From Brachyhypopomus gauderio (Eukaryota > Chordata > Actinopteri > Gymnotiformes > Hypopomidae): a stretch of DNA of 64,000 bases. Under the pieces are notes generated by a model. That model was not told where the DNA came from and did not search any database. It saw only the letters and a list, made by a program, of their open reading frames with translations. This document shows positions 2,399 to 52,856 of this stretch, in pieces. The stretch spans positions 16,765,384 through 16,829,383 of the forward strand of contig NC_135226.1 in the NCBI RefSeq assembly GCF_052324685.1, in the 5' to 3' direction. Position 1 is the stretch's first letter; every line of letters begins with the position of its first letter. A program made the position numbers and the translations under genes.

Positions 2399-2660
2399 AT
2401 GTAGTCTGCAAAGCCTGCCATAACATGACTGACATGACTGGCATGACTAACATAACTGATATGACTGAAATGACATCACTGGCATGATGAACAAAAGTAA
2501 CATGACTGATATGACTGACATAACTGGAATGAGTGACATGACTGGCATGACTGTAATGACATGACTGATATGTCTGACATGACTGGACTGACATGACTGA
2601 TATGACTGGACTGACATGACTGATATGACTGGACTGACATGACTGTTATGACTGGACAGA
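2399..2660. repeat. Minisatellite built from a ~10-bp 'atgactgaca' motif
   Basis: A degenerate 10-bp motif (atgactgaca and variants) runs for about 260 bp. In its last part it is organised into a 23-bp higher-order unit repeated about three times. The same array continues into the start of the other unit copy at 1-75, which is truncated by the window edge. The reverse-strand reading frames (Ser-His-Val rich) are artefacts of the repeat. Confidence 0.85.
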
Positions 2661-4547
2661 TATGCATACAAACTATACATACATTTAGGTAGAAATGTGT
2701 GTGTGTGTGTGTGTGTGTGGTAGTGTATGTACTCAAACTATGACAACATATACTAATACATACATACATAAGTATACATAGAAACTATACATACATATAG
2801 GTATAAAGGTGTGTGTGTCTGTGTGTTTGTGTGAGAGAGAGACAAAAAAGAAGCCAAATATCAGTTTGTATGAGCATGTGTTAGTCACTGAGATATGGGT
2901 GGGTATGGCTAGGGAAGTGTCATTGTGAATGCTATAGGAAGGCCTGCTTGCGCCTGTATGTGTGTGTGCCTGGTTAATAGACACAGAGAGATCTAGGTAG
3001 CCAGAGCAATGTTTACTTAGGGCACAGAGATGGGAGGGGGAATGTGGGTGAGAGTGTGATAGAGACGGAGTGTGTGAGTTTCAGCTTGCGTGCGTGTGAG
3101 AAGGAGAAGGTGACAGAGGGACTTTACATGCATTTTTATGCATTGTATATAATACTGCACTGCAGAGCCATACGATAACCGATTTAGATGAAACTTGACA
3201 AATTTGTTCAGGATGGGATTCTGAATGGGCTTGTGCATTTTGGTCAGAATTGGATAAAATATGAAAGAGCTTTAAGAATATGAATATTATATGTATCGAT
3301 GCTGTCCATTAAAAAAATATTTAGCAGGTATAAGTGTCCTCAAATCCAAAATCTTTGGATTGTTTTTTGATTTCACACTCTGTAGAGTATTATAAGACTT
3401 TGCTTGACATGATAGTATGAAAATCCTAGGAGCAGTATGAAAAGTGATGATTTCAAACTGTTATTAACTGTAAGTAAACTGTGCATTTTTTAATAGGACT
3501 TGTAATGGGAAAGTTGTTCGCACTACTGCAAGGAATCAAAAGAGTCCAATTGCATGTTCCCAAGTGGAATTATGTAGGGGATACACTTGCTTTTTTTGCA
3601 ATAGCGCCCCCCAGTGGCCAATCGACACCCGGGTGGATTATGTCATAGGGGGCGTGCACTTGTCCACACCCAAGAGGTTTCGTGCAGATCGACCAATGGT
3701 AAGCCTGTCAAACGCGTGCCGATCACTGATTGGCAGATTACGTCAGCCATTTTGGAAGTATGGCATGTCTGCTTTAGGACCTGGTTTCCAGAGGCCCATA
3801 GATGATGTCTGTCAAGTTTCATGTGGATCGGCCAATCTGAGTGCATGGGGCAAATTTTTGCATGTTATAGCGCCCCCTAGCAGGTGAGGTATGGCAACCT
3901 CTGCGAGCTGCCCCAGACCCTCACACGGAAGCTGTCTGTGAAGTGCCATCTCATTACATGCAAGTTTTCTTAAGTTAGAGCTCCATATGTGCAAAATTTA
4001 CTATTGAATTTACGCCCCCTCATTTGATTGGCTTATACTGACTAGGTAGTGAAGAAATTAGCATTTTTGTTGGATACATTTTAAAGTTCAGACTCTTCTG
4101 AACGTTTTGATACCACATATGTGCATGTCTGTGAAAAATCCAGGGACTAGTTCGCGCTCAAAGATGTGTGTGATTTTGCACATTATGCAAATTAACTCGA
4201 AATCTAAGTGGGCGGAGCTTAATGGTTGTATATTAATTGTCCTATTGAATTTAGTCAAGGAATGCATAGGAACTGGAATTTTGGTTCTAGGACCTACGGT
4301 GTAGGAGATATGGACAAAAAGTCAATATGCTCTGCTATAGCGCCACCATCAGGCCAATTTGGGTCCCTGTATGGGAATCTGGTCCTTGGAGTTAACTGAA
4401 CCTTTTTGCCAAGATTGGGTTTTCTAGGCATTACGGTCTAGGCTGCACGATGCATTTTATGTCAAAAAATGGGCAAAAGAATAAGAAGAAAAATAAGAAA
4501 AATACCAGCAATTACAATAGGGTTCCCACACTGTGTGTGTGAACCCT
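2555..4547. repeat. Interspersed repeat unit, copy B
   Basis: Second copy of the unit at 1-2033, at a constant offset of 2,554 bp through 4219, which shows near-absence of indels apart from the GT run and compensating changes. It ends in one hairpin (4519-4547) where copy A ends in two. No coding capacity is evident; short ORFs in both copies occur in the same places only because the DNA is duplicated. Confidence 0.75.
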
Positions 4548-4795
4548 AAAAATGTAAATGTATTAGATAACTGAATATGTTAAGTTTATGATTGGTAGGG
4601 GTGGGCCCTTTTTGAATCGGACCACTGCACAGTGCGCATGAAGAGTTGTTCTGGTTGTGCATATTGTTTGAAGAACCTTTCGTTATCACCCCGCTGCAGC
4701 CCAAATGTATGAGTTTTGAAATGAGTGTTTTCTTCAAATGAGTATTTGCAACGTTGTCAGATTTCAGTGCATGTAACTTATTTAGTTAACGCTAA

Positions 4796-6476: not shown

Positions 6477-6816
6477 TGTGACGGTGGGGTCGCGGCGAAG
6501 AACGAGACACACAATCCTTCACAGATACGTCACTTTTACTTGTACACGGTTATTGCGCAATAGCGCACGAAGAACAGAGATACACACACACACTGCAACG
6601 TGTAGACTTTAGACATTGACGAGCACAGGACACTGCGCGAGCGCACATTAAGTAGACAAACCACAGTAGCCCCACGTGATCACGAGACGATTCACAGGTG
6701 AGACTTGTTAATCACACAACAAAACCCTACCCACGTATATACACTGACGCAGACAAAGCACGTGGACTACGTTGACACACGCCCAAAAGGGAGGGGCCGG
6801 GGTCCTCAACGTGACA
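6477..6816 (-). repeat. 3' LTR of the element at 6477-9017
   Basis: 340 bp, apparently identical to 8678-9017. On the minus strand it begins TGTCACGTTGAGG and contains 'GTATATACG', a possible TATA box about 90 bp in. Confidence 0.9.
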
Positions 6817-6958
6817 GACGCCCCCTCCAAGGGCACTACCCGTCCCGGGGTGCCAACAGGACCGAGTGCCCCGAACCCACGACGATGGGCGGATCCGACG
6901 CGCTCAGTCCTGCGTCTGGGAGGTGACCGCCCTTGGGGAAGCGTCCGCCACGGACCGC

Positions 6959-8650
6959 CTAGAACACCCTCCCTGGGAAGACGGGGGAAAAGACGGAAGA
7001 CACATTAAACGGAACAGACACGCATACACACACAGGCACACTGACATACATCGGAATAAACGGGAAAAGGGGGTTTGGTACACAAACGGGCAGACATACG
7101 AACACTGGCACACTCACACATGAGACAGGCGCCAGGCTGCGCGCCAGGAGGAGAGCGACTAGGGGAGAGAGATCGGGTGCTGCAGGCGCTGCGGGTACTT
7201 GTCCTGCTCCAGCCTTTGCTGCATGGTCTCCGCCTGGTACAGCGCGGCTGGCTTGCGCGCCTGGTACAGCGCGGTTGGCGTTCGCGCCAGGTGCTCCGCG
7301 GCGGGCTTGTGCGCCTGATGCAGCGCGGCGGGCTTGCGCGCCTGATGCAGCGCGGCTGGCTTGCGCGCCTGATGCAGCGCGGCTGGCTTGCGCGCCTGAA
7401 GCAGCGCGGCTGGCTTGCGCGCCTGATGCAGCGCGGCTGGCTTGCGCGCCTGATGCAGCGCGGCTGGCAGACGCCCCGTGCGGGCCGTTAGGTGTTTCCC
7501 CGTCGATGTCCATGTCCTCCGTCCCCCGGCTCCACTCCATGGACTGCTCCGGGCTGCCACCCCGGGAGCAGTCCATCGCGCTCTCGCCGGAGCGATCGGA
7601 GTGTGGACGACGCTCCGCACTCCCTTTCACGGTCCTAACCGACCTCACCGAGGCAGGCGGACTGTCCTCCTCTTCCTCCGTATAGGAGTCCCCCTCCGTC
7701 TCACCGTAGTCGGCGGTAGGCGTGGAGCACCCCAATGGAGGGTAGTCCTCTTGCTCCTCCTCCTCCTCTTCACCGTAGTCCTCGCTCTCTGAAGGAGGGT
7801 AGTCCTCTCCCTCCCCGCCGTAGTCTACGGTGGATGCGTCACCTAAAGACGGAGGGTAGGCTTCCTCCTCCTCTCCCCCGTAGTCCTCGGTAGCGGACTC
7901 GCTCTCTGAAGGAGGGTAGTCCTCTCCCTCCTCACCGTAGTCTACGGTGGATGCGTCACATAAAGACGGAGGGTAGGCCTCCTCCTCTTCTCCACCGTAG
8001 TCTACGGTGGAGGCGTCGCACACCGAGGGAGCGGGTTCTTCGCCCTCATCTTCCTCTTCGTCCTGCTCTTCCTCCGTGGAGTCCCCTGCCCCGAACTCGT
8101 TCTTCGGGGAGGTCTCGACCGCTCCGAAAACCCCGGAGTCCACCTTCGGCGACGAGGGAGCGCGGGACGGAGGGGAGTGTCGCTCCCTCCACAGCCTCAC
8201 CGCGCCCTGGCGGAAGAACTCCGCCAGCTCGGGGTCCCTCTCCACTAGCCCCTGGGCTGTGGACAGCTGGAGGGCGCACACTGGGTCGGTCTCCAACTCC
8301 TCGACCGTCGGCATAGCCTCGTGTCGCGGAGAGGGGTTCTCCTCAGGCTCCTCCTCTGGTGTCCTCCCCTCTTCATAGAGTTCGGCGAAGCCCACCCGTA
8401 TGGGCGAGGGCTCCCGGGAAGACGAGGGGTGTCGCTCCTGCCACACCTTTACCGCCGTCTGGCGGTACTCCTCCGCCAGCCAGGGAATGGCGGTCTCCCG
8501 AGCTGCGCACAGCATATAGGAGCACTCCGGGTCCTGTTGGAGCTGCTCCATAGTCGGCGTGACCGGACTGCGTGGAGGGGAGGAAGAGGTACGGTGACGC
8601 CGCTTGCTGGGGCGCTGTGCCTTCTTTGGCCGGGTTGCGTATCCTGGCAT
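6959..8650 (-). CDS. Gag-position ORF of LTR element, 563 aa, family unknown
   Basis: Single ATG-started ORF filling nearly the whole interior of the LTR element, 28 bp after the 5' LTR. By position it should be the gag-like protein, but I recognise no zinc knuckle, protease or polymerase motif. Layout: basic N-terminus (about residues 1-35); two diverged copies of a ~50-residue module of the form DPxC...LA(E)x(F/Y)RQ.AV..W.ERH (about 35-85 and 115-165); a long Asp/Glu-rich region with repeats around DASTVDYG and YPPS (about 190-350); about ten 9-residue Ala-Ser-Gly-Gln-Arg repeats, from 27-bp DNA repeats; and a Val/Cys/Pro-rich tail. The intact frame fits a recent copy. Function is not known to me; a structural role in particle formation is only an inference from position. 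Confidence 0.65.
   Translation of the reverse strand: MPGYATRPKKAQRPSKRRHRTSSSPPRSPVTPTMEQLQQDPECSYMLCAARETAIPWLAEEYRQTAVKVWQERHPSSSREPSPIRVGFAELYEEGRTPEEEPEENPSPRHEAMPTVEELETDPVCALQLSTAQGLVERDPELAEFFRQGAVRLWRERHSPPSRAPSSPKVDSGVFGAVETSPKNEFGAGDSTEEEQDEEEDEGEEPAPSVCDASTVDYGGEEEEAYPPSLCDASTVDYGEEGEDYPPSESESATEDYGGEEEEAYPPSLGDASTVDYGGEGEDYPPSESEDYGEEEEEEQEDYPPLGCSTPTADYGETEGDSYTEEEEDSPPASVRSVRTVKGSAERRPHSDRSGESAMDCSRGGSPEQSMEWSRGTEDMDIDGETPNGPHGASASRAASGAQASRAASGAQASRAASGAQASRAASGAQASRAASGAQARRAASGAQARRGAPGANANRAVPGAQASRAVPGGDHAAKAGAGQVPAAPAAPDLSPLVALLLARSLAPVSCVSVPVFVCLPVCVPNPLFPFIPMYVSVPVCVCVSVPFNVSSVFSPVFPGRVF
7230..7485 (-). repeat. 27-bp coding tandem repeat inside the LTR element ORF
   Basis: About nine to ten copies of a GC-rich 27-bp unit (core 'gcgcctgatgcagcgcggct' on the + strand) encode a 9-residue Ala-rich repeat in the minus-strand ORF. 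The middle copies are nearly identical and the outer ones are more diverged, the usual pattern of unequal exchange within an array. Confidence 0.9.
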
Positions 8651-8677
8651 TTCTGTGTCTCTTGCGGCTCGTCAATC

Positions 8678-9017
8678 TGTGACGGTGGGGTCGCGGCGAA
8701 GAACGAGACACACAATCCTTCACAGATACGTCACTTTTACTTGTACACGGTTATTGCGCAATAGCGCACGAAGAACAGAGATACACACACACACTGCAAC
8801 GTGTAGACTTTAGACATTGACGAGCACAGGACACTGCGCGAGCGCACATTAAGTAGACAAACCACAGTAGCCCCACGTGATCACGAGACGATTCACAGGT
8901 GAGACTTGTTAATCACACAACAAAACCCTACCCACGTATATACACTGACGCAGACAAAGCACGTGGACTACGTTGACACACGCCCAAAAGGGAGGGGCCG
9001 GGGTCCTCAACGTGACA
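8678..9017 (-). repeat. 5' LTR of the element at 6477-9017
   Basis: 340 bp, apparently identical to 6477-6816. The first bases of the interior on the minus strand are GATTGACGAGCCGC; they lack the usual TGG of a tRNA primer site, although CGAGCC also occurs in the 3' ends of some tRNA-Arg complements. The primer is therefore unclear. Confidence 0.9.
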
Positions 9018-9050: not shown

Positions 9051-9217
9051 TGTGGTAGTAGTATTACAGTATGAACAGGTAATCATTTGGCTGTACATGT
9101 GTTGAAAATTTAGCAAAAGACATTTAAAGTTATTAATGCAATTGTGCATGTGATATATTCTGATGCTTTTAAGACATTTTCACAGTTTGTTATCAATTTT
9201 TGCATCCAAAAGGAGTA

Positions 9218-10150
9218 ATGGAAAATTCTACAGGAGAATTCATGTTTGTTCTTCATGGACTGAATGACACAAAGACAAACAAACACATTTACTTTGCATT
9301 TGGTCTTATTGTGTATATAATAACTCTGTTTGTAAATGTTATGCTAGTTATTACTGTCATTCTGGACAAAACACTTCATGAGCCTATGTATCTGTTCATA
9401 TGTAATTTGTATATAAATGGTATAGGTGGTGCTTCTGCTTTCTATCCAAAGATCCTTGCTGATCTTTTTTCAGACACTCATGTAATTTCATATACTGGTT
9501 GTCTTATACAAATATGTGCAATTTACTGGTATCTATTCTGTGAATTTACAAGTCTAACTATCATGGCATATGATAGATATCTAGCTATTTGTAAGCCTCT
9601 GGAATATCACTCTATTATGACACACCAGATGGTGGTGAAACTGTTGGTTTGTACCTGGCTTTTCTCCTTACTAGAAACATCTGTTGGGACTGTACTGACA
9701 GCCCAACTAACCTTATGTGGTAATGAGATTGACAAGCTTTACTGCTTTAACTGGGATGTTGTAAAGCTTTCCTGTACAGATATCACTTTGAACAGCTTAT
9801 ATGGGTACATTCTAATACTTTCTCATGCTTCTCAATTCATATTTATCATTATTTCATACATTAATATCATCAAAGCATCTTTGAAGTCCAAGACAGAGAG
9901 AGTCAAATTCATGCAGACCTGTCTGCCCCATTTAATAACTCTCAGTAATTTCACTTTTTCCCTGCTTCTTGATGTTTTGTGTGCTCGCTATGGGAAAGGA
10001 GAGAGACTTCAGGCTCTGCGCAATATTTTAGGTATAGAGTTTCTCGTGGTGCCTCCTCTCCTAAACCCCATCATATATGGGATCAGAATGACACAGATTC
10101 GTAGCCAGTTTGTGAAAATGTACAGTAATACAATTAACACATTTAGATAA
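9218..10150 (+). CDS. Olfactory (odorant) receptor, 310 aa, intact
   Basis: Seven-transmembrane odorant receptor of the rhodopsin-like family, expected in the cilia of olfactory neurons and coupled to a stimulatory G protein. Supporting features are a single exon; the N-glycosylation sequon NST at residues 3-5; LHEPMYLF at the start of TM2; a conserved Cys before TM3; the diagnostic MAYDRYLAIC at the end of TM3; paired Cys in the long second extracellular loop; and PPLLNPIIYGIR in TM7. Length is normal for the family. An in-frame non-ATG extension exists upstream, but the start is placed at MENSTGEF, which is shared with the second gene. The neighbour at 20629-21561 is a tandem duplicate. A 2.5-kb LTR element lies 200 bp upstream of the start codon. 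The exact teleost OR subfamily and ligand are unknown. Confidence 0.93.
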   Translation: MENSTGEFMFVLHGLNDTKTNKHIYFAFGLIVYIITLFVNVMLVITVILDKTLHEPMYLFICNLYINGIGGASAFYPKILADLFSDTHVISYTGCLIQICAIYWYLFCEFTSLTIMAYDRYLAICKPLEYHSIMTHQMVVKLLVCTWLFSLLETSVGTVLTAQLTLCGNEIDKLYCFNWDVVKLSCTDITLNSLYGYILILSHASQFIFIIISYINIIKASLKSKTERVKFMQTCLPHLITLSNFTFSLLLDVLCARYGKGERLQALRNILGIEFLVVPPLLNPIIYGIRMTQIRSQFVKMYSNTINTFR

Positions 10151-10209
10151 GTAGTAATGCTGAAGTCGGATCTGTGTGTGTTTTCCATTTGACCTTGATC
10201 AGACTTTAA

Positions 10210-10400
10210 TTCTAGTCAAGTCAATTCAAGTCAAATTTATTTATTTAGCACTTTTTACAACACATGTTTTCACAAAGCAGCTTTACAATTGTATGGGTCC
10301 AAATCCCTAATGTGCAAGCCAGAGGCGACAGTGGCAAGGAAAAACTATGATGGTGGGGATTAGGAAGAAACCTCGGGAGGACCAAGACCAATTCTAGCCA
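10210..10400 (-). mobile_element. 3' tail of a fish LINE (Rex/L2-like)
   Basis: Contains the widespread fish LINE 3' phrases 'tcaaatttatttatttagcac', 'cacaaagcagctttacaa' and 'gccagaggcgacagtggcaa'. On the minus strand it ends in TTGACTTGAATTGACTTGAC, the tandem tail typical of such elements. It is severely 5' truncated with no coding part, and it begins about 60 bp after the OR stop codon. Confidence 0.7.
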
Positions 10401-11578: not shown

Positions 11579-12648
11579 TGTCACGTTGTGGGGGGCCCCC
11601 TACCGGTCGCCCCCGGTTACAGCGGCAGCGGTCCTGTTTTTGTCACGTGATGTTCGTCCTTCAGGTGGGCGGGACCCGTGATCCGTCTCACCTGAGGGTC
11701 GTTTGTTCGTCTATATACGTTAGGGATGCACCGAAAATTCGGCCACCGAAAATTTTCGGCCGAAATGGCTTAAATTTGCATTTTCGGTTTTCGGCCGAAA
11801 TACTTTCATCACCGAAACAACACGGCCGAAACAATGTGCTGTGATGACGCAAGCAAAAATCGCCACCTGTACGCGCTTATTTGGATAAAGCTAGCAAAAA
11901 AGTTTTCCAGTGATGGCGCCGAGGCAAAGGACATTACACCAAAAATTATGGAACTCGTTTAGACGATCAGCCGTTCTCTGTCGTAGGGATTTCGTAGGCT
12001 AATAGAGCACTTTGAGCCCCGTTATGTTTTGCCGAGCCGAGTTTACCTGAGCTGTTTAATATTGTTGCAACTCACGTCACGTTTTTATGAGAGAATTTAT
12101 ATTTATCTTTCAGGCCAGTCAGTTATAATTTAATTTAACTCGTATAAAATACATATATTTATCCTCTCAGATAAAAACGGTCTGCAAGCGAGTTAAATTT
12201 AATTAGTGGTCGGCCATTGTCAGCTTTATCGCCGTTAACGGCCCACCACTAATTTTATTTTATAATATGCATTACTGTAATGTCAGTGCTAAATAAATAT
12301 TTTCAAATCAAATTTTGTAGTTGATTTATACTTTGAAAAGCAATGCCTTGATTTTAGTGAGGTTAGCCATAAATCCAATGTTACTAATAATTGGCATAAT
12401 GTATTTCGGTGTTTCGGTTTTCGGCCTTGGTTTCCTCATTTTCGGTTTTCGGTTTCGGCTAAGAATTTTCATTTCGGTGCATCCCTAATATACGTCTTGT
12501 CTTTGTACCAGTTGACTGCTGGTTATTATTTCCTTCATTTGGAACAATGCACGGGTTTTTGGTTTGCACACTTTCTATTAAACCATCCTCTTTCCCTGAG
12601 ACTTGGCGTGATCGCTTCCTTTTTGAGTTGCTCACCCTGCCCGTCACA
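11579..12648 (+). repeat. Left LTR, interrupted
   Basis: Segments 11579-11720 and 12496-12648 together form one LTR. Both ends match the right LTR at 14518-14671. The hAT insertion lies between them and duplicates atatacgt. Confidence 0.88.
11721..12487. mobile_element. Non-autonomous hAT transposon
   Basis: 767 bp with terminal inverted repeats tagggatgcaccgaaa / tttcggtgcatcccta and a perfect 8-bp target duplication atatacgt (11713-11720 and 12488-12495), the hallmark of hAT elements. Both ends are rich in 'tttcggttttcggc' subterminal repeats. No transposase ORF is present. It landed inside the TATA-like sequence of the LTR. Confidence 0.93.
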
Positions 12649-14292
12649 GAATAACCAGCCACCTTTCGGAAGCCGCCAGTCTCCTTTGCTTTCTCCTTCG
12701 TTCGTGGTCATGTCTCGTGGTAAGTGTTTGTCTACGTGCGGTATGTTTGTCGTGTATTGTCTGAGAGAGTGTTGAGTCTGTCCCCACTCGTCCCGCCGTG
12801 TTTAAATGTTGTTTGTGTTTAAACCCGTAAATTACACTAGATGACTAGAGCTGGGGACCGGTAGACTCCGCTCTCACCCAGCGAAACTACCGGTGCCTCA
12901 CATTGCACACGTCGGTTGTCCGTTATCATCTGTGTGTGTGTGTGTGTATGTACGTTGTAGTGTTTTGTTTTAATAACGACGCGGACGTGAGCGAGTGTGT
13001 GAGTGTGCCGTGGTGTGTGTTTCGCTGGTGGTGTTCGTGTGTGTATGTAGTCGGGTCCACCGGTGCGTGCTGCGCGCTAGAACGCGTGAGACGCGATTCT
13101 CTCTGCTCCTTTTCGCCTCGCTCACCCGATATCCCGCGGTGACGGGGGTGAGCGACTGCGAGCCAGAGGGATGCGTCGCTGTGGGCGTGGTGCGCAAGCC
13201 ACTCGCGCATAGCTCTCTCTCTCCAAAGATCTACGGATCCCGTGGTGAAAACGGTGAGAGAGAGAGCTGGAGTGGGCGCGTCACGCTCCGCAGAGCGCGC
13301 GCATCGGTGGGTCCTGTCCGTTTGTTTGTGTTCTGTCTTTGCGTGTTCGTTTTGTCCTAGAGTGTAGCGTGCTTTGTTTTATGTAATTCCTCTCTTGCAC
13401 CCCTCTTCACTGTGTGTGGGGAGGGGCCCATTAGAGGTCCCGTGCCACTGGATGTGGCACGGAGGGCACCTTGGGTGCGTATATGTTAAATGTTGTGTCT
13501 GTGTTTTTTGTTTTGTTGTTCCCCGGAGGGGCCCCCCCTAAATATGTTTTTGGGGGGGAGCTATGGGGTTCCTGAGCCACGACATGTGGCTCAGAAGGCA
13601 CTGCTCCATCAGAAGACCTGACCGGTTGGGAGGGACCCCTGAGCAAAGAGGAGCCCCTGTACCCCTTTGTAGGCGGAGGATGCCTGGGGTGTAAGGACAG
13701 GGTGTCTCCTCATGCCAAGAAGGGGTCCCTTCCCCCCTGTGTAAAAGGGGGGTCAGTGGTCGGAGCAGTGCGCGTTTTGTGTTATGTGTTGTCTGTGTGC
13801 GTGTGTTTGTGATGTGTTGCAGGTCGCTCCTGGTGGTGGACTGCGGTACTCCCGGACCTAGTGGGGTCTCCAGGAGGAGACCCTCTCCTTCGAGCTCGGG
13901 GTGACCAGCGTGTCCCTGTTGCGGATTGCCAGGGCCCTGGTCTCTGGCGCTCCTGGGTTGGGTGGAGGAGTCCACCTTGAGATGAGGGGCCCCGGGGAGG
14001 GGTTCACTCCCCAGGAGTCTGGGGTGACCCCTAGCGAAAGGGCAGGGGTCAGCTCCGAGCGAGGAGGTAGGTTCGGGAGGTGGTTGGTGGAAGCCGTGGC
14101 CGCACCCCAGTGTGGCGGCCTGCACACATCCACACCTGTGACGTTCGTTGGGCCATGTGCTCCGGGTCCGCACTCAGCGGTGGGGCTTAAGCGGCCTAAT
14201 GGCCGGTTAGGGCGCGAGGGCCCTGTGACCGACCGGGGCGTGGTTATCGTCTTGTTGACGGCCCAGTCGGTCCAGGGTCCCGCCCAGGAGGC

Positions 14293-14436
14293 GAGCTAGC
14301 TTGTGTGTTTTATGTTTTCAGCTCCAGGACTGCAGGGAACGGGTCCCTGCCTTGTCTGCGTCCTGTGACGAGGAGCTTATGTGTTTTGTGTTTCAGCTCA
14401 GGATGGCAGGGAACGGGTCCCTGTCTTGTCCCCGCC
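14293..14436 (+). repeat. Two tandem ~75-bp modules with acceptor-like tracts
   Basis: Units at about 14293-14363 and 14373-14436 each contain 'tgtgttttatgttttcag' or a close variant, then 'cagggaacgggtccctg'. Each therefore carries a pyrimidine-rich tract plus AG, followed by a small GGGTCCC palindrome. They lie in the 3' part of the LTR element interior. Confidence 0.8.
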
Positions 14437-14517
14437 CTCCCGCCCCTTTGTTGTATTTTGTGTGCTGCCGCTGTAAGCCGCACATCCGGAGGGGAGTGCA
14501 GCTTTGGTGGGGGGGTC

Positions 14518-14671
14518 TGTCACGTTGTGGGGGGGCCCCCTACCGGTCGCCCCCGGTTACAGCGGCAGCGGTCCTGTTTTTGTCACGTGATGTTCGTCCT
14601 TCAGGTGGGCGGGACCCGTGATCCGTCTCACCTGAGGCGTCTCACCTGAGGGTCTCACCCTGCCCGTCACA
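14518..14671 (+). repeat. Right LTR, internally deleted
   Basis: First ~120 bp and last ~30 bp match the left LTR. About 140 bp between them (from 'gtttgttcgt' to 'gagttg') is missing and replaced by a short repeat of 'cgtctcacctgagg', which suggests the deletion occurred between short direct repeats. Confidence 0.85.
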
Positions 14672-15222: not shown

Positions 15223-16747
15223 TGTTTTCAATGATCTTTTAATGATTGTTTACTAACCTGTTAAACATGGCAATTGGGAGAAACATCTAAACACACAGAA
15301 TGATCATTTGCTGCTGATTGCTTTGAGTCTGATGTTGACTGCATACAGATTTGGAGTAACATACGGTGTCCTGGACCAAAATGAGGATCCATTTGCAGAA
15401 AAAACTCAGTTTTATTATAAACAGAGAGGGGTAAGTCAAAGGCGCGAATAACCACAGTTCAGATCGACAACAAAAGAATGGCCAGATTAAACAGGCAGAG
15501 ATAAAGTGAGGCGAGACAGAAGGCAGGGTGCTTAACAGACATCCAAGAACGGCAGGAAAAGCAAACAGTGATCCAGGCAGAGGTATAAGACAAGGTCTAG
15601 GCCAGGGATGGGCAACTTCCATGACAAAGAGGGCCAAAATTTTTTCAGCACTATTATTGGAGGGCCACATGACCACGCACTTCAAATAATTGGATATGAA
15701 AGACACTACAAATTATTCTCAATAAGAACACATTTTAAATGAATTCAGATCTGTATGTTTATTGCACCAACATACATCTATTTTCTGCATATAAATGCAT
15801 TAACATGTCCTTAATAAGCAACAAAGACAAAACATTTGCTTAATAAAAAAGTGCAAAAAGGAATTTGAACTCCTTCATATCAAAGAACTGTAACGCGTAG
15901 CGCTGCGGAGCGAGGAGGCGGACACAAACGCTGAGAAGAGCGAGATTTAATAAGGGGAATTCCATAGGCGAAGTCGTTTGTACAGGCACGGGTCAAAACG
16001 GGAGAGCCGTCCAAGTGGTCAACAGGACAGGCAGGAGTCGTAACAGGAGAGCCATTCACAACGGAGAAACACAACGGAGACGGAAAATACCAGAACAGCG
16101 ATGACAGAGATAATCCACAAAACCGAACAAACCACAAATAACCGACAACGGGCGAAACACAGAGATACAAGTACACAGGACTAAACTAGACACAACTGAA
16201 CGCAATGACGACACGGGCGTGGCAGACAGAGGGAAACCAGGGGGGTGTTCCAAGAAGCGGGTTAAGCGAGAAAACCCGGGTAAGTTAACTCAGAGTTCAC
16301 GGAAACTCGAGGTTTTCCGTTCCAGAAACCGAGCTTAGAGAGAACCGGAGTCAGTTACTATAGCAACTTATGCTCTGAAGCTAACCTGCTCGCTGGCAGG
16401 TTAACTTGGACCTGACCCAGAGTTACAAACACGTCATTATGACGTGTCTTTTCCTCGACGATCAAGTGGATATTGAAACTCAGTCTATTCGCTGAGTTCT
16501 TCGTCGGGAACGCCTTATAAAACCCCGAATAGACATAGGCCTACTATCATTTTCGGATTATTTTTTTAATGAACGTTATCGTTTTCAGCACAATCCATTA
16601 CTTACATCAATAACTTTATTATTATAATAACATTTCAAATATTACACATCGCGGATCAGCCCTAAATTCTCTCCAGATTGTTATATATCGGTCTTCGTTT
16701 TTTGCTAGTGGAAGTTTTCTTTATAGTGTAGGAGATGCGGAATCTGT

Positions 16748-17273
16748 GGGTTTCCATCCAAACCTTTCGAAAAAATAATGCGCAATTTCCAAGTTTCGGC
16801 AGAAAAAAATGCGAATTAAGCCTTGTTTCCATTCATTACAGTTATGCGAATAAACTTTAGATCACGTGAGAGGACGCCAAACAATAGTGGTTTTACGTCC
16901 ATCTGGCAGTTACGCATTTTTGCACGTTGAGGTTTTGAAACATTTTTTTCTTTTTCTTTTCTATACATGGAGAAGTTAAATTCAATTTTTGCTCTCTCCA
17001 GAACTGTTTTTGTATGCATTTGCCATTTTTACATCGCGATCGTGTACAGAACCACATGACTTGAGGCATGATACGTCATCGTTTATGCGAAAAACCCTTT
17101 TCCATCCAGTTTTTCCGAATTTTGGCGATGCGATAGTCTAACTTTTCCACCTCCTCCTAGCGTAAAAATCTTTTTGCGATATTTGGGGCTTTTTTCGAAT
17201 TTTGGTCTTTTTCCATCCAGTTTTTTTCATGCGCATTTTCAAAATGCGCAAAAACTCGGTGGATGGAAAACCC
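16748..17273. mobile_element. Short inverted-repeat element inside the Harbinger
   Basis: Inverted ends gggtttccatcca / tggatggaaaaccc (16748-16760 and 17260-17273), with repeated internal 'tttccatccagtttttt' words and AT-rich, 'atgcgca'-containing subterminal parts. Non-coding MITE-like block of ~525 bp; no certain target duplication. Level five of the nest. Confidence 0.65.
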
Positions 17274-17336
17274 TCGGTCTGTCCGAAAACTATGTCCGGC
17301 ATTAAAATGACTAGTGCCCGGTTTTGTGGTGTTTCC

Positions 17337-18216
17337 TGGGCTTAAGCAAGTTATGGACATCAAAGAGGAATTCCACAGCATCATTGGTTTGTCTTTAATT
17401 CACACGGACAATAAAGAAATTAAGCAAAGGAGAGGCAATATATAACGAACTTCATTCCATTTACATTTTAAGGATTTCCTAGAGTGATTGGCTGTATTGA
17501 TGGAACCTACATATGCTACCTATTCCAGCACCATTAGAACATGAAAATTCATCTATAGCATTAATGTACAGGTACTAACCTTTATAATCCTTAATGAATA
17601 CTTATCTTTAATGGTAACAAAAATAACGTAGCTATTGTAACTGACCGTTCTTCCCATCAAGATCATATGTGATGCTTCCCACCTCGTCACAAATGTTGAA
17701 GCCAGATGGCCAGGATCCGTGTATGATTCCACACTGTACAACAAATCTGAACAGAGTAGGCCTGCGGTAGTTTTGCTAGTTGTTCACATGCAGTGTAATA
17801 GTTAAATCATTGCAAACCCTAGTGTGATTATAGGACATGACGGCCTCCTTCATGGAGACAGAGGGTATCCCTGCCTGTCCTATAGGCCTACCTTATGACT
17901 CCCTATTCAGATCCTGCACCTGGACCACAGTCCCGCTACAATCAAGCCCACAGCAAAACCAGGGCAAGAATTTAAATGACCCTAGGAATCCTCGAGGCCA
18001 GGTTCCAGTGCCTGAAGGTGCTCAGAGTAACCCCTGATAGGGCGTGCCACATAATAATGGCATATGTGGTATTACACAACATTGCAACCACCCAGGAAGA
18101 GCGACAGCCTACCATCTCTGACATGCCCACAGACGAGGAACCTTACATGCATGTGGGTGACAACAGAGATGGTGGAGTTGTCAGAGACTCCATCTGGAAT
18201 TACTGCTTTCCACATT
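17337..18216 (+). pseudogene. Harbinger transposase relic (HARBI1-like)
   Basis: Pieces of the DDE nuclease of the HARBI1 family are readable across frames: 'FPRVIGCIDGTYI' (about 17474-17512, with the first catalytic Asp), 'ICDASHLVTNVEARWPGSVYDS' shared-type region (about 17665-17730, second Asp), and 'CHIIMAYVVLHNIA' (about 18046-18090). Frameshifts and stops separate the pieces, and the N-terminus is disrupted by the inserted short element upstream. Not functional. Confidence 0.8.
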
Positions 18217-19351
18217 AAATCATGCACCACCACCCACCCCACCATCCACCCTGTAACCTTTTAATATACATTACAGTCAAAATCACTGCTATGTTTCATT
18301 ATTTCATTTTTCCTGTAAATAAATATATTTTATAATATATTTTAAGAATAAGATATAGTTATGTACAGCCATACCACTTTGTACAATATTCTTATACTTC
18401 ATTTTTATCTGATGCCATGTGTGTTTCACACCACTCAGATTAGACCTGGAATTAGTAAGTGTTCAATAAAAAAATATTTAAAAACTCAATACAGTATTAT
18501 AAAGGTGGAGAAAATAATAATATAATCGCACCCTTCTGCTAAATATAAAAATATAATTTTCACTCACGCATTAACTCTGTTGGCAATTTTTTGACATGCT
18601 GACTGCCTTTCTCTAGCAGCTACCGCAGTATTACATTTACGTTTAATAATATCTAAATATTCTGCATACGCAAGCTACAGTGGTGTGAAATACGATGTTC
18701 GGCTGATTTTCGCGTTTAAATCCATGATAAATCCTATTTATCTGCGTTCCATTAAGAATGCCTTTCATAGTTACGCGTGAACGCGCTTCTGTCTGGGTCA
18801 ACCTACTCAGAGTTGAGCGACCCTGATTACTTTAACTCCGATCCGCCGTTTTGGAACCGAAAACTCTGAGTATGTCAGATCGGGGTAAGACAACTCCGAG
18901 TTCAGGGTTAAGTTTAGAGTTTGTTAAACCCGCTTCTTGGAATACCCCCCAGGACAACAGACACGCAGGGCGGGATAACCGGGCAAGGAACAACACCGAC
19001 ACGGGAGAGGGGGGCGTAGCCCTACGTGACAAGAACAAAAAAGTCCTGCTCTATTGGGTTTTTTTCTTTTAATTATTAAATTATTATTGATCTATTTGCC
19101 GCCAGTTGCCCATCCCTGGTCTAGGCAGAGTCGAGATCATAAAGGTCGAGATCAAACGAAAATGCAAAACAGAGACAAAGAAAATATTGCTTGATGGGAT
19201 GTCAGGATGAGATGCCAGTACTTTGCAAAGTCCTGATGATGCTGGCTGGTTTAAATAAGTAATCATTGTGATAGAGAACCGCTGAGTCTCTAAAATTCAG
19301 GAGATTGTGACCTCTGGTGGCGAGATGGGGGAAGTGGCCACAGTCCTGACA

Positions 19352-20418: not shown

Positions 20419-20628
20419 TGTGGTCATAGGCATGGAACTTCAATTACTATTATTCAGCTGCACATTTTATATGGTCAGTTATTAAAAGATGGTTGCGGAT
20501 GTGTTGGGATTTTTGCACAAGACTTTAAAAATTATTAAGAAAATTCCAGCTTTAATATATTTCCTGGGCAATGATGCTTCTAAGATTTTTTAAAAGCTTG
20601 ATATATGGTTTTGCATCCAAAAGGAGTA

Positions 20629-21561
20629 ATGGAAAATTCTACAGGAGAATTCATGTTTGTTCTTCAAGGACTGAATGACACAAAGACAAACAAACACATT
20701 TACTTTGCATTTGGTCTTATTGTGTATATAATAACTCTGTTTGTAAATTTTATGCTAGTTATTACTGTCATTCTGGACAAAACACTTCATGAGCCAATGT
20801 ATCTGTTCATATGTAATTTGTATATAAATGGTATAGGTGGTGCTTCTGCTTTCTATCCAAAGATCCTTGCTGATCTTTTTTTAGACACTCATGTTGTTTC
20901 ATATGTTGGGTGCTTAACACAAATGTTCATAATTTACTGGTATCTATTCTGTGAATTTACAAGTCTAACTATCATGGCATATGACAGATATATAGCTATT
21001 TGTAAGCCTCTGGAATATCACTCTATTATGACACACCAGATGGTGGTGAAACTGTTGGTTTGTACCTGGCTTTTCTCCTTACTAGAAACATCTGTTGGGA
21101 CTGTATTGACAACTCGACTAACCTTGTGTGGTAATGAGATTGACAAGCTTTATTGCTTTAACTGGGATGTCGTAAAGCTTTCCTGTACAGATATCACTTT
21201 GAACACCTTATATGGGTACGTTCTAATACTTTCTCATGCTTCTCAATGTGGATTCATCATTGTTTCATACATTCACATTATCAAAACATCTTTGCATTCT
21301 AAGGCAGAGCAAGTCAAATTCATGCAGACATGTCTGCCCCATTTAATAACTCTCACTAACTTCTATGTTTCCCTGATGCTTGATGTTTTGTGTGCTCGCT
21401 ATGGAAAAGGAGAGAGACTTCAGGCTCTGCGCAATATTTTAGGTATAGAGTTTCTTGTGGTGCCTCCTCTCCTAAACCCCATCGTATATGGGATCAGAAT
21501 GACACAGATTCGTAGTCGGTTTATTAAAATGTACAGTCGTAAATTCAACGCCGTTACGTAA
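20629..21561 (+). CDS. Olfactory (odorant) receptor, 310 aa, intact
   Basis: Tandem duplicate of the receptor at 9218-10150: about 275 of 310 residues agree, with no gaps. It has the same family marks (NST sequon, LHEPMY, MAYDRYIAIC, extracellular-loop cysteines, PPLLNPIVYGIR). Substitutions are not spread evenly. Seven fall within 14 residues leading into TM3 (from 'LDTHVVSY' to 'MFIIYW'), others group in TM5 and TM6, and the C-terminal tail differs, while TM1-TM2, TM4 and TM7 are nearly unchanged. An upstream in-frame ATG at 20605 would add eight residues; the start at MENSTGEF is preferred because the first gene lacks the upstream ATG. Ligand unknown; a shifted odour preference is an inference. 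Confidence 0.93.
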   Translation: MENSTGEFMFVLQGLNDTKTNKHIYFAFGLIVYIITLFVNFMLVITVILDKTLHEPMYLFICNLYINGIGGASAFYPKILADLFLDTHVVSYVGCLTQMFIIYWYLFCEFTSLTIMAYDRYIAICKPLEYHSIMTHQMVVKLLVCTWLFSLLETSVGTVLTTRLTLCGNEIDKLYCFNWDVVKLSCTDITLNTLYGYVLILSHASQCGFIIVSYIHIIKTSLHSKAEQVKFMQTCLPHLITLTNFYVSLMLDVLCARYGKGERLQALRNILGIEFLVVPPLLNPIVYGIRMTQIRSRFIKMYSRKFNAVT

Positions 21562-24500
21562 GTAGTGCAACATTGAACACGTTTCCCATTTGATTTTGAT
21601 CAGACTTTCCACTTCTAGCCATCTTGTACTCCATGTTAAATAATTCCATTATTATTCCAGAATTATAAATGGATGTAAATAGAGACATGAACTTTGTCCC
21701 TTTTGAACAAGATCTACACTAAGGTGAAAAGATGTTTTATACTTCAGAAATAATCTTATGCAAATAAAAAAGTATCTTTAAAGTAAGCATGTAGATTTTC
21801 ATTTTAGAATTAAACTGGGATTTGTTTGACTGGTGAACAGGCAAACATAGTAATAACGTACTAAGTATTTTAAGATGAGGCCAGGTTACCTTACAGGAGT
21901 AGCTGTAAAATTTCTTCAATATAACTTTATAGAGAGAATGCTATACTTAAAAGACAAGAGCAGCTGTACAACTTGCAATGCTAATAATTAGCATCCCATC
22001 TTCTTAAAATCAAACTTCTTTGTTTGCTTGCTTATTTGTTTTTGAGTTAAACTAAGTAGCTCAGCCATCTTGTTCATAATGAAGCACATTGACTCAAAAC
22101 AGTTTGTCGGAATTGCTCAGTAAAAATAGATATTTTTAAGTCATACGTAGACAAGAGACAGTCGCACCATTGACACAGTTGTAGGGACTTGTGGAAAAAT
22201 ATTTGTAAAAGATTCCTCCTCGAACAGGGAGCCACGTCCATTCATTCAAACAATGGCGAGCTTCAGGATACAAAAAAGAATATTGGACTTTTCCTTGAGT
22301 AACATTTTAATTTATGAACTATATTTGAATCTATTTGAATATTTGTTCAAATATAGGTTGAGTCTCATAGGACTGATTCAGCAGTTTTAAAATGGTATTA
22401 CATTGTCTCTACTATACACAATATTTACACAACTGTGCCGTCCCATTTCAAAAATGTAAATGTTCCACAAAGACTGGTAAGGGTTATGCTACAAATGTGT
22501 TACTCTTGTGTCAGATGAGGTGTGTATAAAGTGCTTCAGTGACACTTTATAAACATTTGTAAATCAGGTTAGGTCAAGTGCTGTTACTTACAATTTAGAC
22601 TCCCATTTAGACCAGAGGAATATACAACTTTTATTTCCACAATTTTTTTTTCCCCTTTAACAGTTAACAAAATAGTTAGGCAGGAGCAGACTGGGTCTTC
22701 CCAAGAATTGGTCCAGAAACAGCTCCCTGCCAACACTCAACCTTCAATGTTGTGACTGTATTCCATTAGAGACCCAAGCCAGAATATTTCTAAAGGATTT
22801 ATTTTATTGCTAAAAGGGAACAAAAGCAATACATGAAATATATCAGATGTATCACTACAAATAAATTTCATTTGTACTTACAATAATTTTACATAAAAAA
22901 ATATTATTCCTTTGGGTTTCAAACCTATCACTTACCTAAAATATATATTATTATCTATATATTATTCTTAGCTCCACATTACAGCTCCAACAATGTGCGC
23001 TTTCATTTATGAACATTCAAATGCAGGTCAAGAACTACCTGATTCAAGCCATACCTAGTTTAATGTAAAGCAAACATTAAATAAATATTCAACATTTTTT
23101 CAAATATTGACAAATAAAAAACAATAAAAATAAAATAAAGATGTGGAGTACAAACTCAGTACTACAAGAGTAAATTCTGTATGAGACAGAGTCTTCCTTT
23201 GTTATGAGCTATTGTGCGAGTAATTATACACGCACAAATGAAGATTCACACAACACTGTCAAGAGAACATGTGTAAAAGTGAAAACAGAGGTGCATTTCC
23301 TTCTGTAATGAAGAACAGTTATATTTGCTTTGTTATATTTACTTCTTTTCAAATCATTGGTGAATCCATCTACAAAAAGAAAAGCAAAGCTTTCTGCAAC
23401 AAGGATTATTGCTGGAACTCGCTATCAAAGAATAGAGCAACATGCATCATTTTTGTTTGTTTTTTTTAAGAAAGATTAAATGAAATGTAGTAAAGAAATT
23501 CTTGCTAAATGCTTCATTTTCTATGTGGTACAATACTTGCACGTTGCCACCAAAAATATTTGATGTCAAATTTGACTCTTTTGCTAGATCACATTTTCCT
23601 TGGTTGTTTAGCAGAGTTAGTCCTATACTATCTACAAGAGTATCTACATAGCAACTACTACCCTGCACAGACCGTAAACACTACTGAGCCCAAGATGCAA
23701 AGTGCTCGACACAAATCAAACATACTGAGTTCCAGCTATACAGAGAAATTTGCTTAAGTTTGTATGTAAATCAAACAAAATTTTGCATTTGTATAGTTCC
23801 CAACTTCATTTAATTAGTATTACTGAAGCAGGGGACGAGAAGAGCATTTAAACACTTTAACTGTGTATTCTGCATTAACAGAGCAGCTATAATTTATAAT
23901 GCCATACTACCATACTTTACAAATGTTAATGTTTCAGTAGAAAGTTATTTTTTAGTTACTTTCAAGTGTTTGGGCCAGACAGCTTGCTCTAGCAATTTTC
24001 AATATCCTTTTTCAATATAGTACAAGCTTCTAAACTATTAAGTCAAATTATGCTAGCAGAAAGCTTTCAAAAATACACATTCACTCACTTCAAGGCAGGT
24101 CAACCTGAGGTACTTGTCAGGGTTATAATTCCATAAGTGTATCATAGATTGTAGGCAGCATATGATAAGATTGAAACTCACAGTGCACTCTGACAGTGGT
24201 GCCAAACCTTTTCTTCTGAGACAACCAGAAGGATATAAGTGTTAATGATCCAAGGCAGGGAAAGTGATTAGTAAATCCCCCATAATTAAGCAAATCAAAA
24301 ACACTAAACAAAGGGCAGACCCCTTTGCTGCTTATTCAGACGAACAAACATTTGTGTTTTCATGAAAGCTCCATGACACTGTAAAGCTCATGAAACATAA
24401 AATCGCCACACACAAAACCAAGCTTATTTGTTTACTCTGCATTGAATTGCACCTTAAGACCTTTGTAGCAAGAAACTGATTATGATTGCTCATTTCACAG

Positions 24501-35108: not shown

Positions 35109-36732
35109 AAAAAAAAAAAAAAAAAAAGTAAAATTCATTTATATAGGACTTTTCACAGGCACAAGCCACAAAGTGCTTTACAACGGAAAATAAAATAAAA
35201 TAAAATAAAATAAATAAAAAACACAAAAACACACACTATAAACCAGAAATAAAATACAGTGCACAAGGTCAACGGCTGCAAATTCCACCACTAACTAAAC
35301 GCCTGCGTAAAAAGGAAAGTCTTTAGCTGTTTTTTAAAAGTATCCACAGAGTCAGCTGACCTTAAATGTGGAGGAAGTGTGTTCCACAGTTTTGGAGCAA
35401 CCACCTTAAATGCTCGGTCTCCACGAGTCTTTAGATGTGAGCATGGCACAGACAGTAAACTCAGGTTGTTTGACCTGAGTGATCGCGATGAAGTGTAGGG
35501 GTGGAGCAGGTCAGCGACATACACAGGAGCTGTGTTGTGTAGTGCTCTGTATGTTAAAGTTAAAATCTTGAACTGGATTCTGAATTCTACAGGAAGCCAG
35601 TGTAAGGATTTTAAAATGGGTGTTATGTGAGACCGTCTGCTTGACTTGGTCAGTAACCTCGCTGCAGCGTTTTGAATTATCTGTAAACGTCCACAAGCTG
35701 ATACACTGAGAGATGAAAACAAGGCATTACAGTAGTCTATGCGAGATGAAAAAACGCATCTCTGGATCTGCTGTTGAAACCATAGATCTCAGTTTACTGA
35801 TATTTCTCTAGTGGAAGAAACAGGATCTTGACAGCTGTTTAACATGAGAATCAAATGCTAAAGACTGATCGAAAATAACTCCCAGATTTCGGAGGCTAGA
35901 GTGGATAGCAGAGGAAAGAAGCCCAAGATTTTGCTTAATCGTTTGACTAAGACTTTCGGGAGCAATGCTCAATACCTCAGTCTTGTTGTCATTTAGCTGT
36001 AGGAAGTTATTTGAGGTCCATTCTCTGATTGATTGAAGACAATCTAATAGCCTAGACAAACTATGAACCTCACTTGGTTTAAAAGAGAAATAAAGCTTAA
36101 TATCATCAGCAAATAAATGATAGGAAATATTAAAACTATTTAAAATCTGCCCCAAAGGTAACATGTACAAAGAAAACAACAAAGGCCCTAAAACTGAACC
36201 CTGTGGAACCCCACAGGTTAATGGGGTTGCCTCAGACCTGTAATCTCCCATCGTAACTGAGAAACTTCTCCCAGTGAGATAAGAAATAAACCAATCAAGT
36301 GCTGTTCCAGATATGCCCACCCAGTCACGTAACCTATTTATCAGTATTTCATGATCAATGGTATCAAACGCAGAACTGAGATCCAGCAGCACCAACACAG
36401 AGCAGTGAGACCCTCAGGAGAGCAGTCTCTGTAGAATGCCTCTTCTGAAACCCAGATTGTAAAGAGTCGTAGCAATTGTGATTTTCTAAAACTGTAATCA
36501 GTTGGATTGCCACCACCTTCTCTAAAATTTTGGATAAGAAAGGAAGCTTAGATATAGGCCTATAGGTCTTAAGCACAGCCGGGTCTAAATTTGATTTCTT
36601 TAAAAGAGGCTGAACAGTGGTGTGTTTAAAATAAGATGGAAAGCAACCTGTTAACAGTGAGGAATTTACAATGGCCAATATAGCAGTACGGATAGTACGG
36701 ATAGGCCAGAATTCAAGATACCCTTGAGTCAT
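35109..36732 (-). pseudogene. L2-like LINE, 5' truncated, dead reverse transcriptase
   Basis: On the minus strand, reverse transcriptase blocks appear in order: 'YRPISKLPFLSKILEKVV' (about 36540), '[16 protein letters not shown]' (about 36370), '[19 protein letters not shown]' (about 36200), the catalytic '[10 protein letters not shown]' (about 36090), then the thumb and C-terminal region ending at 35291. A T-rich/TTTTA-repeat tail and poly(A/T) run to about 35109. The frame is broken by a small deletion near 36400, an in-frame stop near 35810 and a frameshift near 35730. The endonuclease half is absent. Confidence 0.88.

Positions 36733-38649: not shown

Positions 38650-52856
<14,207 letters not shown>

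Follow-up and report, generated by a model that had tools for sequence, protein, structure and literature searches.

We analysed a window of 64,000 bp from the Brachyhypopomus gauderio genome (C16:16765384-16829383), in which olfactory-receptor genes at 9200-10150 and 20605-21561 lie on either side of a stack of nested transposable elements (Table 1). The gene copies, at 9097-10218 and 20499-21621, are 88% identical, and their similarity stops at 10218, where a repeat (10216-10284) starts that has an inverted copy at 45249-45317. The same gap holds a second nest, an LTR element at 11579-14671 (duplication AAAAT) whose left LTR houses a 767-bp hAT (11721-12487; duplication ATATACGT, ends TAGGGATGCACCGAAA). 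Elsewhere in the window there is a young LTR element at 6477-9017, with identical 340-bp repeats, the duplication ATTAT and a single 563-codon open frame on the minus strand (6959-8650). A third hAT lies at 46551-47622 (duplication CTCTAGTG, ends CAGTGGTTCTCAAACT), a 2-kb direct repeat (1-1987 and 2585-4552, 93% identical) runs from the window edge, and a reverse transcriptase fragment is found on the minus strand at 35808-36398 (RVT_1, E 2.8e-23).

An earlier note on this DNA had described the stack as five transposons, each inserted into the one around it. The layer classes, the boundaries and the topology of that nest proved essentially right, and the 8-, 5- and 3-bp duplications and the inverted ends were verified letter by letter.

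Table 1. Features of the transposon stack, in plus-strand order (window positions).
Feature	Position	Strand	Details
Outer LTR, 3' part on minus strand	15367..15602	-	TGT..ACA ends; AATAAA at 15416-15411; genome match only to itself
hAT target duplication GTCTAGGC, left copy	15595..15602		8/8
Composite hAT, left arm	15603..15888		inverted ends 15/15; 39 other matches among best 40 scored, 98-99% identity
AGAAC, left copy, apparently inherited	15884..15888		exact at left junction in 18/29 other copies
Putative LTR-derived core, first part	15889..16240	-	ATTAAA at 15951-15946; 39 other matches among best 40 scored, 96-98% identity
Harbinger target duplication CAG, left copy	16238..16240		single CAG in 32/39 other composites
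Harbinger, left part	16241..16747	+	inverted ends 22/23; 39 other matches among best 40 scored, 98-99% identity
MITE copy, 528 bp	16748..17275		without family ends AGCC.. and ..T; replaces 15-20 bp of Harbinger
Harbinger, right part with broken DDE transposase gene	17276..18949	+	recognisable pieces about 17311-18218
Putative LTR-derived core, second part	18950..19031	-	opens with right CAG copy (18950-18952); joins first part via one CAG in 32/39 other copies
AGAAC, right copy, apparently inherited	19032..19036		exact at right junction in 25/29 other copies
Composite hAT, right arm	19032..19118		inverted ends 15/15; present in 36/39 other copies
hAT target duplication GTCTAGGC, right copy	19119..19126		8/8
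Outer LTR, 5' part on minus strand	19119..19351	-	relatives of right half in genome

Each layer was used as a query against the window's own assembly (796.5 Mb, 840 contigs). For every query at most the best 40 candidates were scored, the window's own included (the best 40 of 2699 for the LTR-like core and of 326 for the hAT arm), and all copy numbers are lower bounds. Copies of the composite hAT were collected in two ways. Twenty-nine other loci (L013-L041) were fetched via the core and hence chosen by it, while 10 further loci (L089-L098), all on the plus strand, were taken from the 39 other hAT-arm matches and are free of choice by the core; five arm matches adjoining core matches were left out of this set. 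Randomised windows were first-order Markov samples. Within the window, no further copy of any stack layer was found at E up to 0.01.

The innermost inverted-repeat element had been placed at 16748-17273. It is a real element with copies elsewhere, and its right end lies at 17275. The best 40 places scored include 39 other copies at 98-100% identity and, by its sequence, the window element is a truncated member of this MITE family. Among 29 other copies, 22 start with AGCC, 26 end in T and 14 have a perfect 3-bp duplication, these ends and this duplication length being the best of 216 combinations tried; in the window copy both the family ends and the 3-bp target duplication are absent. When aligned locally without constraint, the two MITE ends were no more similar than randomised sequence (score 21, randomised maximum 27); when the ends were anchored, their similarity was above chance, with 10 of 20000 randomisations as good. 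Folding into a hairpin (z -2.99; 2 of 100 randomised sequences equally stable) was not used as evidence.

The junction between Harbinger and MITE is whole at one of the 40 scored places, the window itself. All 16 other Harbinger copies examined, drawn from the 39 other left-part matches, are uninterrupted at the MITE site and contain two TCTGT motifs, which lie 22 bp apart in 11 of them and 17 bp apart in five. The MITE occupies the whole of this spacer save its last GG (20 or 15 bp). Since TCTGT is native in every one of these copies, it is ruled out as the target duplication of the MITE. The equal phase of its two copies was likewise rejected as support for a target duplication, since it carries no weight when the native gene has both.

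We infer the route of the MITE into the Harbinger from these junctions. Entry by DNA repair, in which a copied patch filled a break and the transposase of the MITE played no part, has in our estimate slightly less than an even chance of being correct. A duplication is absent, the Harbinger has lost 15-20 bp and the MITE both family ends, and TC is common to both partners at the right junction, all as expected of such a patch. However, a normal insertion would look alike if each junction later lost a little sequence. Furthermore, the boundaries are set inwards from the usual ends by just a few bases, and a few other copies have odd ends too (7 of 29 do not start with AGCC).

The Harbinger itself, proposed at 16241-18949 with a CAG duplication, was borne out by CAG on both sides, inverted ends matching at 22 of 23 positions and an empty site elsewhere. 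In 32 of 39 other composites, a single CAG stands where the two parts of the core join; in the remaining seven, one core part is missing or shortened, or (L014, on C26) the core is interrupted by a Harbinger. At the level of sequence, the empty site shows this element to be a real insertion into the core. Membership of PIF/Harbinger agrees with the 3-bp target duplication and with a DDE transposase, both of which are present. It should also be noted that a scan of the window for exact 12-base inverted repeats with 3-bp duplications missed the Harbinger; its ends differ at base 7.

The transposase is a relic. Two of seven single pieces match DDE_Tnp_4 (E 0.006 and 0.0094, under the curated cut-off), and the pieces joined with an X at each break match the same family at E 7.1e-15. 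Conserved pieces of the gene are joined across two candidate GT-AG introns (17387-17472 and 17572-17661); frame changes and stops persist. Because these two candidate introns account for part of the frame changes, decay of the transposase was dropped as a clock. The Harbinger end gave no match in viral and prokaryote contigs. An 80-aa piece of the transposase gave one pattern match in viral contigs, which was not confirmed, and none in the PDB, while the hAT end gave only three matches in viral contigs, of at most 21 bp.

An intact junction between core and Harbinger was seen at two of the 40 scored places, the window and C26:1603359-1603558. The latter belongs to a composite hAT at about 1601200-1604050 of C26 (L014, L099), which has a Harbinger at the identical site, CAG on both sides and both hAT ends missing. 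If a Harbinger-bearing composite hAT had moved or been duplicated between the window locus and C26, the Harbinger would have arrived as cargo. The shared site and its flanking CAG speak for such a transfer, as does the resemblance of the two copies: over arm and core, the closest relative of the C26 copy is the window copy (6 differences in 592; next, 10 in 590), and the window copy in turn has four nearest relatives, C26 and three more, each at 6 differences. However, the window copy is near the common state of its family, so nearness alone says little. No variant, in either the Harbinger or the composite, is private to the window and C26 pair; window-only columns number 5 in each, and C26-only columns 6 and 5, respectively. 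The left parts of the two Harbingers differ at 10 of 506 positions, compared to 6-9 differences between the window and 13 others and 7-11 between C26 and the same 13. In addition, a FastTree phylogeny of the composites groups C26 with L013 (support 0.74) rather than with the window, both ends of the hAT are missing on C26, and CCAG stands at the left edge of many Harbinger copies, in keeping with two separate insertions at a preferred site. We consider a transfer between the two loci unlikely; two Harbinger insertions at a preferred site fit the data best.

The hAT at 15603-19118 was also confirmed, with GTCTAGGC on both sides and inverted ends identical over 15 of 15 bases. An 8-bp target duplication and short terminal inverted repeats, both found here, are the marks of a non-autonomous hAT. 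Their combination in strict form (an 8-bp duplication with an exact 15-bp inverted repeat) occurs three times in the window, in the stack hAT and in two others, and not once in 10 randomised windows.

Copies of this hAT elsewhere in the genome reveal how its layers are related. The left arm is present in all 29 core-fetched loci and the core in all 10 arm-fetched loci. With the two sets pooled, the left arm is found in 39 of 39 other copies, no more than 9 bp from the core in 38 of them, and the right arm in 36; the right end was not recognised in three arm-fetched copies (959 bases each). Perfect 8-bp duplications flank 28 of the 39 (22 of 29 core-fetched and 6 of 10 arm-fetched); these comprise 26 different sequences, and 25 of the 28 fit nnnTAnnn. 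One duplication, TTCTACAT, is common to L019, L020 and L089, which may therefore be duplicated loci. The composite unit of arms and core is, by these signs, one that moves as a hAT, and as far as sequence can tell the copies show the hAT and the "inner solo LTR" to be a single family, composite in nature. Two copies are at odds with this pattern, L025, in which the arm is split, and L013, whose left arm deviates over its last 26 bases. Furthermore, as the arm copies are the best 40 of 326 candidates, a core-free hAT may exist unseen.

From several features of the core we infer that it is a putative LTR-derived sequence. The alternative is that the core is ordinary inner hAT sequence, with TGT..ACA and AGAAC present by chance. 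No core-free copy occurs among the 39, as this alternative would predict, and the signature of AGAAC with TGT..ACA is weak alone: the window contains 27 pairs whose inverted ends match at 6/7 or better, compared to 20 randomisations that averaged 10.95 and never exceeded 18. However, given the nest, any such 5-bp/TGT..ACA pair arises in 40 of 3000 randomisations and one with 6/7 ends in only 2 of 3000. The core's minus-strand start, TGTCACGT, is common to the two LTR elements of the window at 6477-9017 (ATTAT) and 11579-14671 (AAAAT). G+C content shifts at both core edges, from 0.329 to 0.511 and from 0.634 to 0.333, and one locus (L044) has an 84% relative of core bases 12-110 that lies outside any hAT and has TGTAA directly before it. 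We therefore regard ordinary hAT sequence as quite an improbable source, and favour a core derived from an LTR. There is an even chance, in our judgement, that an LTR came to form the permanent body of a hAT mini-element and that DNA transposition, not reverse transcription, spread it through the genome. If so, retroelement promoter and poly(A) sequence would have been dispersed by a DNA transposon.

Membership of the core in the hAT family (39/39) also bears on the order of events. Since the core travels with the hAT, it would have been inserted before the hAT landed at the locus, reversing the order of these two layers, and AGAAC would have been made elsewhere and inherited. The inner solo LTR of the earlier note, 15889-19031, does have AGAAC on both sides; exact AGAAC junctions in other composite copies rule out that this duplication was made at the locus. 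The note had named in advance, as a result that would speak against its reading, a flanking duplication that is part of an element itself, and AGAAC, inherited with the composite hAT, is such a duplication. Five independent insertions at the locus (outer LTR, hAT, inner LTR, Harbinger and inverted-repeat element, in that order) would account for the nesting and for the 8-, 5- and 3-bp duplications, all of which are seen, but with the same core inside all 39 other hAT copies fetched this history is extremely improbable. Five sequence layers are present, and the insertion events at the locus would number four. The relative order of insertion, described as firm, holds for the Harbinger and the innermost element and fails for the hAT and the inner LTR. 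Likewise, of the flanks expected to match uninterrupted outer elements once restored, those of the Harbinger in the core (32/39) and of the innermost element in the Harbinger (16/16) do so, while the search for copies of the outer LTR uninterrupted by the hAT yielded none.

The outermost layer had been read as a solo LTR at 15367-19351. Its termini (TGT at 15367, ACA at 19351) and its LTR relatives support an LTR. A target duplication of 4-6 bp is absent, the flanks being TACGG and CTTGG, so we name the layer an old, degraded LTR rather than a clean solo LTR. Alternative boundaries with a 4-6 bp duplication gave 18 scattered candidates, all with inverted ends of at most 6/7, and were rejected. 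For the left half, no relatives were found in the genome beyond the match to itself. For the right half (233-base query), the best 40 scored include 39 other matches at 75-88% identity. Thirty-six of these are restricted to about the last 50-110 bases of the query, 21 cover query bases 151-233, and 30 stop at base 233 (19351 of the window). Among the relatives, four same-strand pairs on C104, C6, C8 and C7, known from the positions of the matches alone, are spaced 4.3-4.7 kb apart, as is expected of paired LTRs in a single element. These relatives, from which it has diverged by 12-25%, mark the outer layer as an old, degraded LTR. The loss of its duplication is in keeping with that age. Reduction of the element to a solo LTR is the probable origin of its present form.

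Taken together, the stack was very probably made by four events, in the order old LTR, composite hAT, Harbinger, MITE. An LTR retroelement would have inserted long ago and been reduced to a solo LTR (15367-19351 minus the inserts). Elsewhere, an LTR-derived core would have entered an ancestor of the hAT. Already carrying this core, a non-autonomous hAT some 0.8 kb long would then have inserted into the old LTR, presumably mobilised in trans, and made GTCTAGGC. A PIF/Harbinger would next have entered the LTR-derived core and duplicated CAG, and the transposase gene it carries has since been broken. Finally, a young MITE of about 0.5 kb would have come into the transposase gene, either by insertion with junction losses or by capture during break repair. 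CpG ratios (outer LTR 0.45/0.48, hAT arms 0.13/0.43, core 1.15/0.87, Harbinger 1.22/0.58, MITE 1.34) were dropped as a clock, since they differ between arms and core, which travel as a single unit. The stack is ordinary genome history, to which the composite hAT adds a mildly interesting twist.

Nested transposons serve as relative clocks, and at this locus a textbook 5-bp duplication combined with nesting misorders one layer. The composite origin is revealed only by copies elsewhere in the genome. The TCTGT direct repeat sets another trap at the locus, mimicking a target duplication although it is native sequence.

Non-autonomous hAT elements have 8-bp duplications and CAGGG.. inverted ends. 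The family described here is the same in both respects and differs by the LTR-derived core in each of its 39 other copies. A narrow literature search found no LTR-carrying composite hAT, which says little about what is in print, and a search with these element ends returned only papers unrelated by title. Compared to teleost PIF/Harbinger elements, as described in the passages of PMC9179366 drawn on here, the window copy has the same 3-bp duplication, DDE transposase and inverted-repeat ends; its transposase is broken, however, and its 23-bp end match (22/23) is slightly under the 25-50 bp given there. Nested insertions are common in eukaryotes and nesting is used as a temporal order, with DNA transposons inside LTRs named as a fish example, in the relevant passages on REANNOTATE (PMC2672092) and FishTEDB (PMC6404401). 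The window stack shares with the nested elements of those passages the insertion of one element into another. It differs in that nesting order is not arrival order for one layer, because the DNA transposon brought its guest along.
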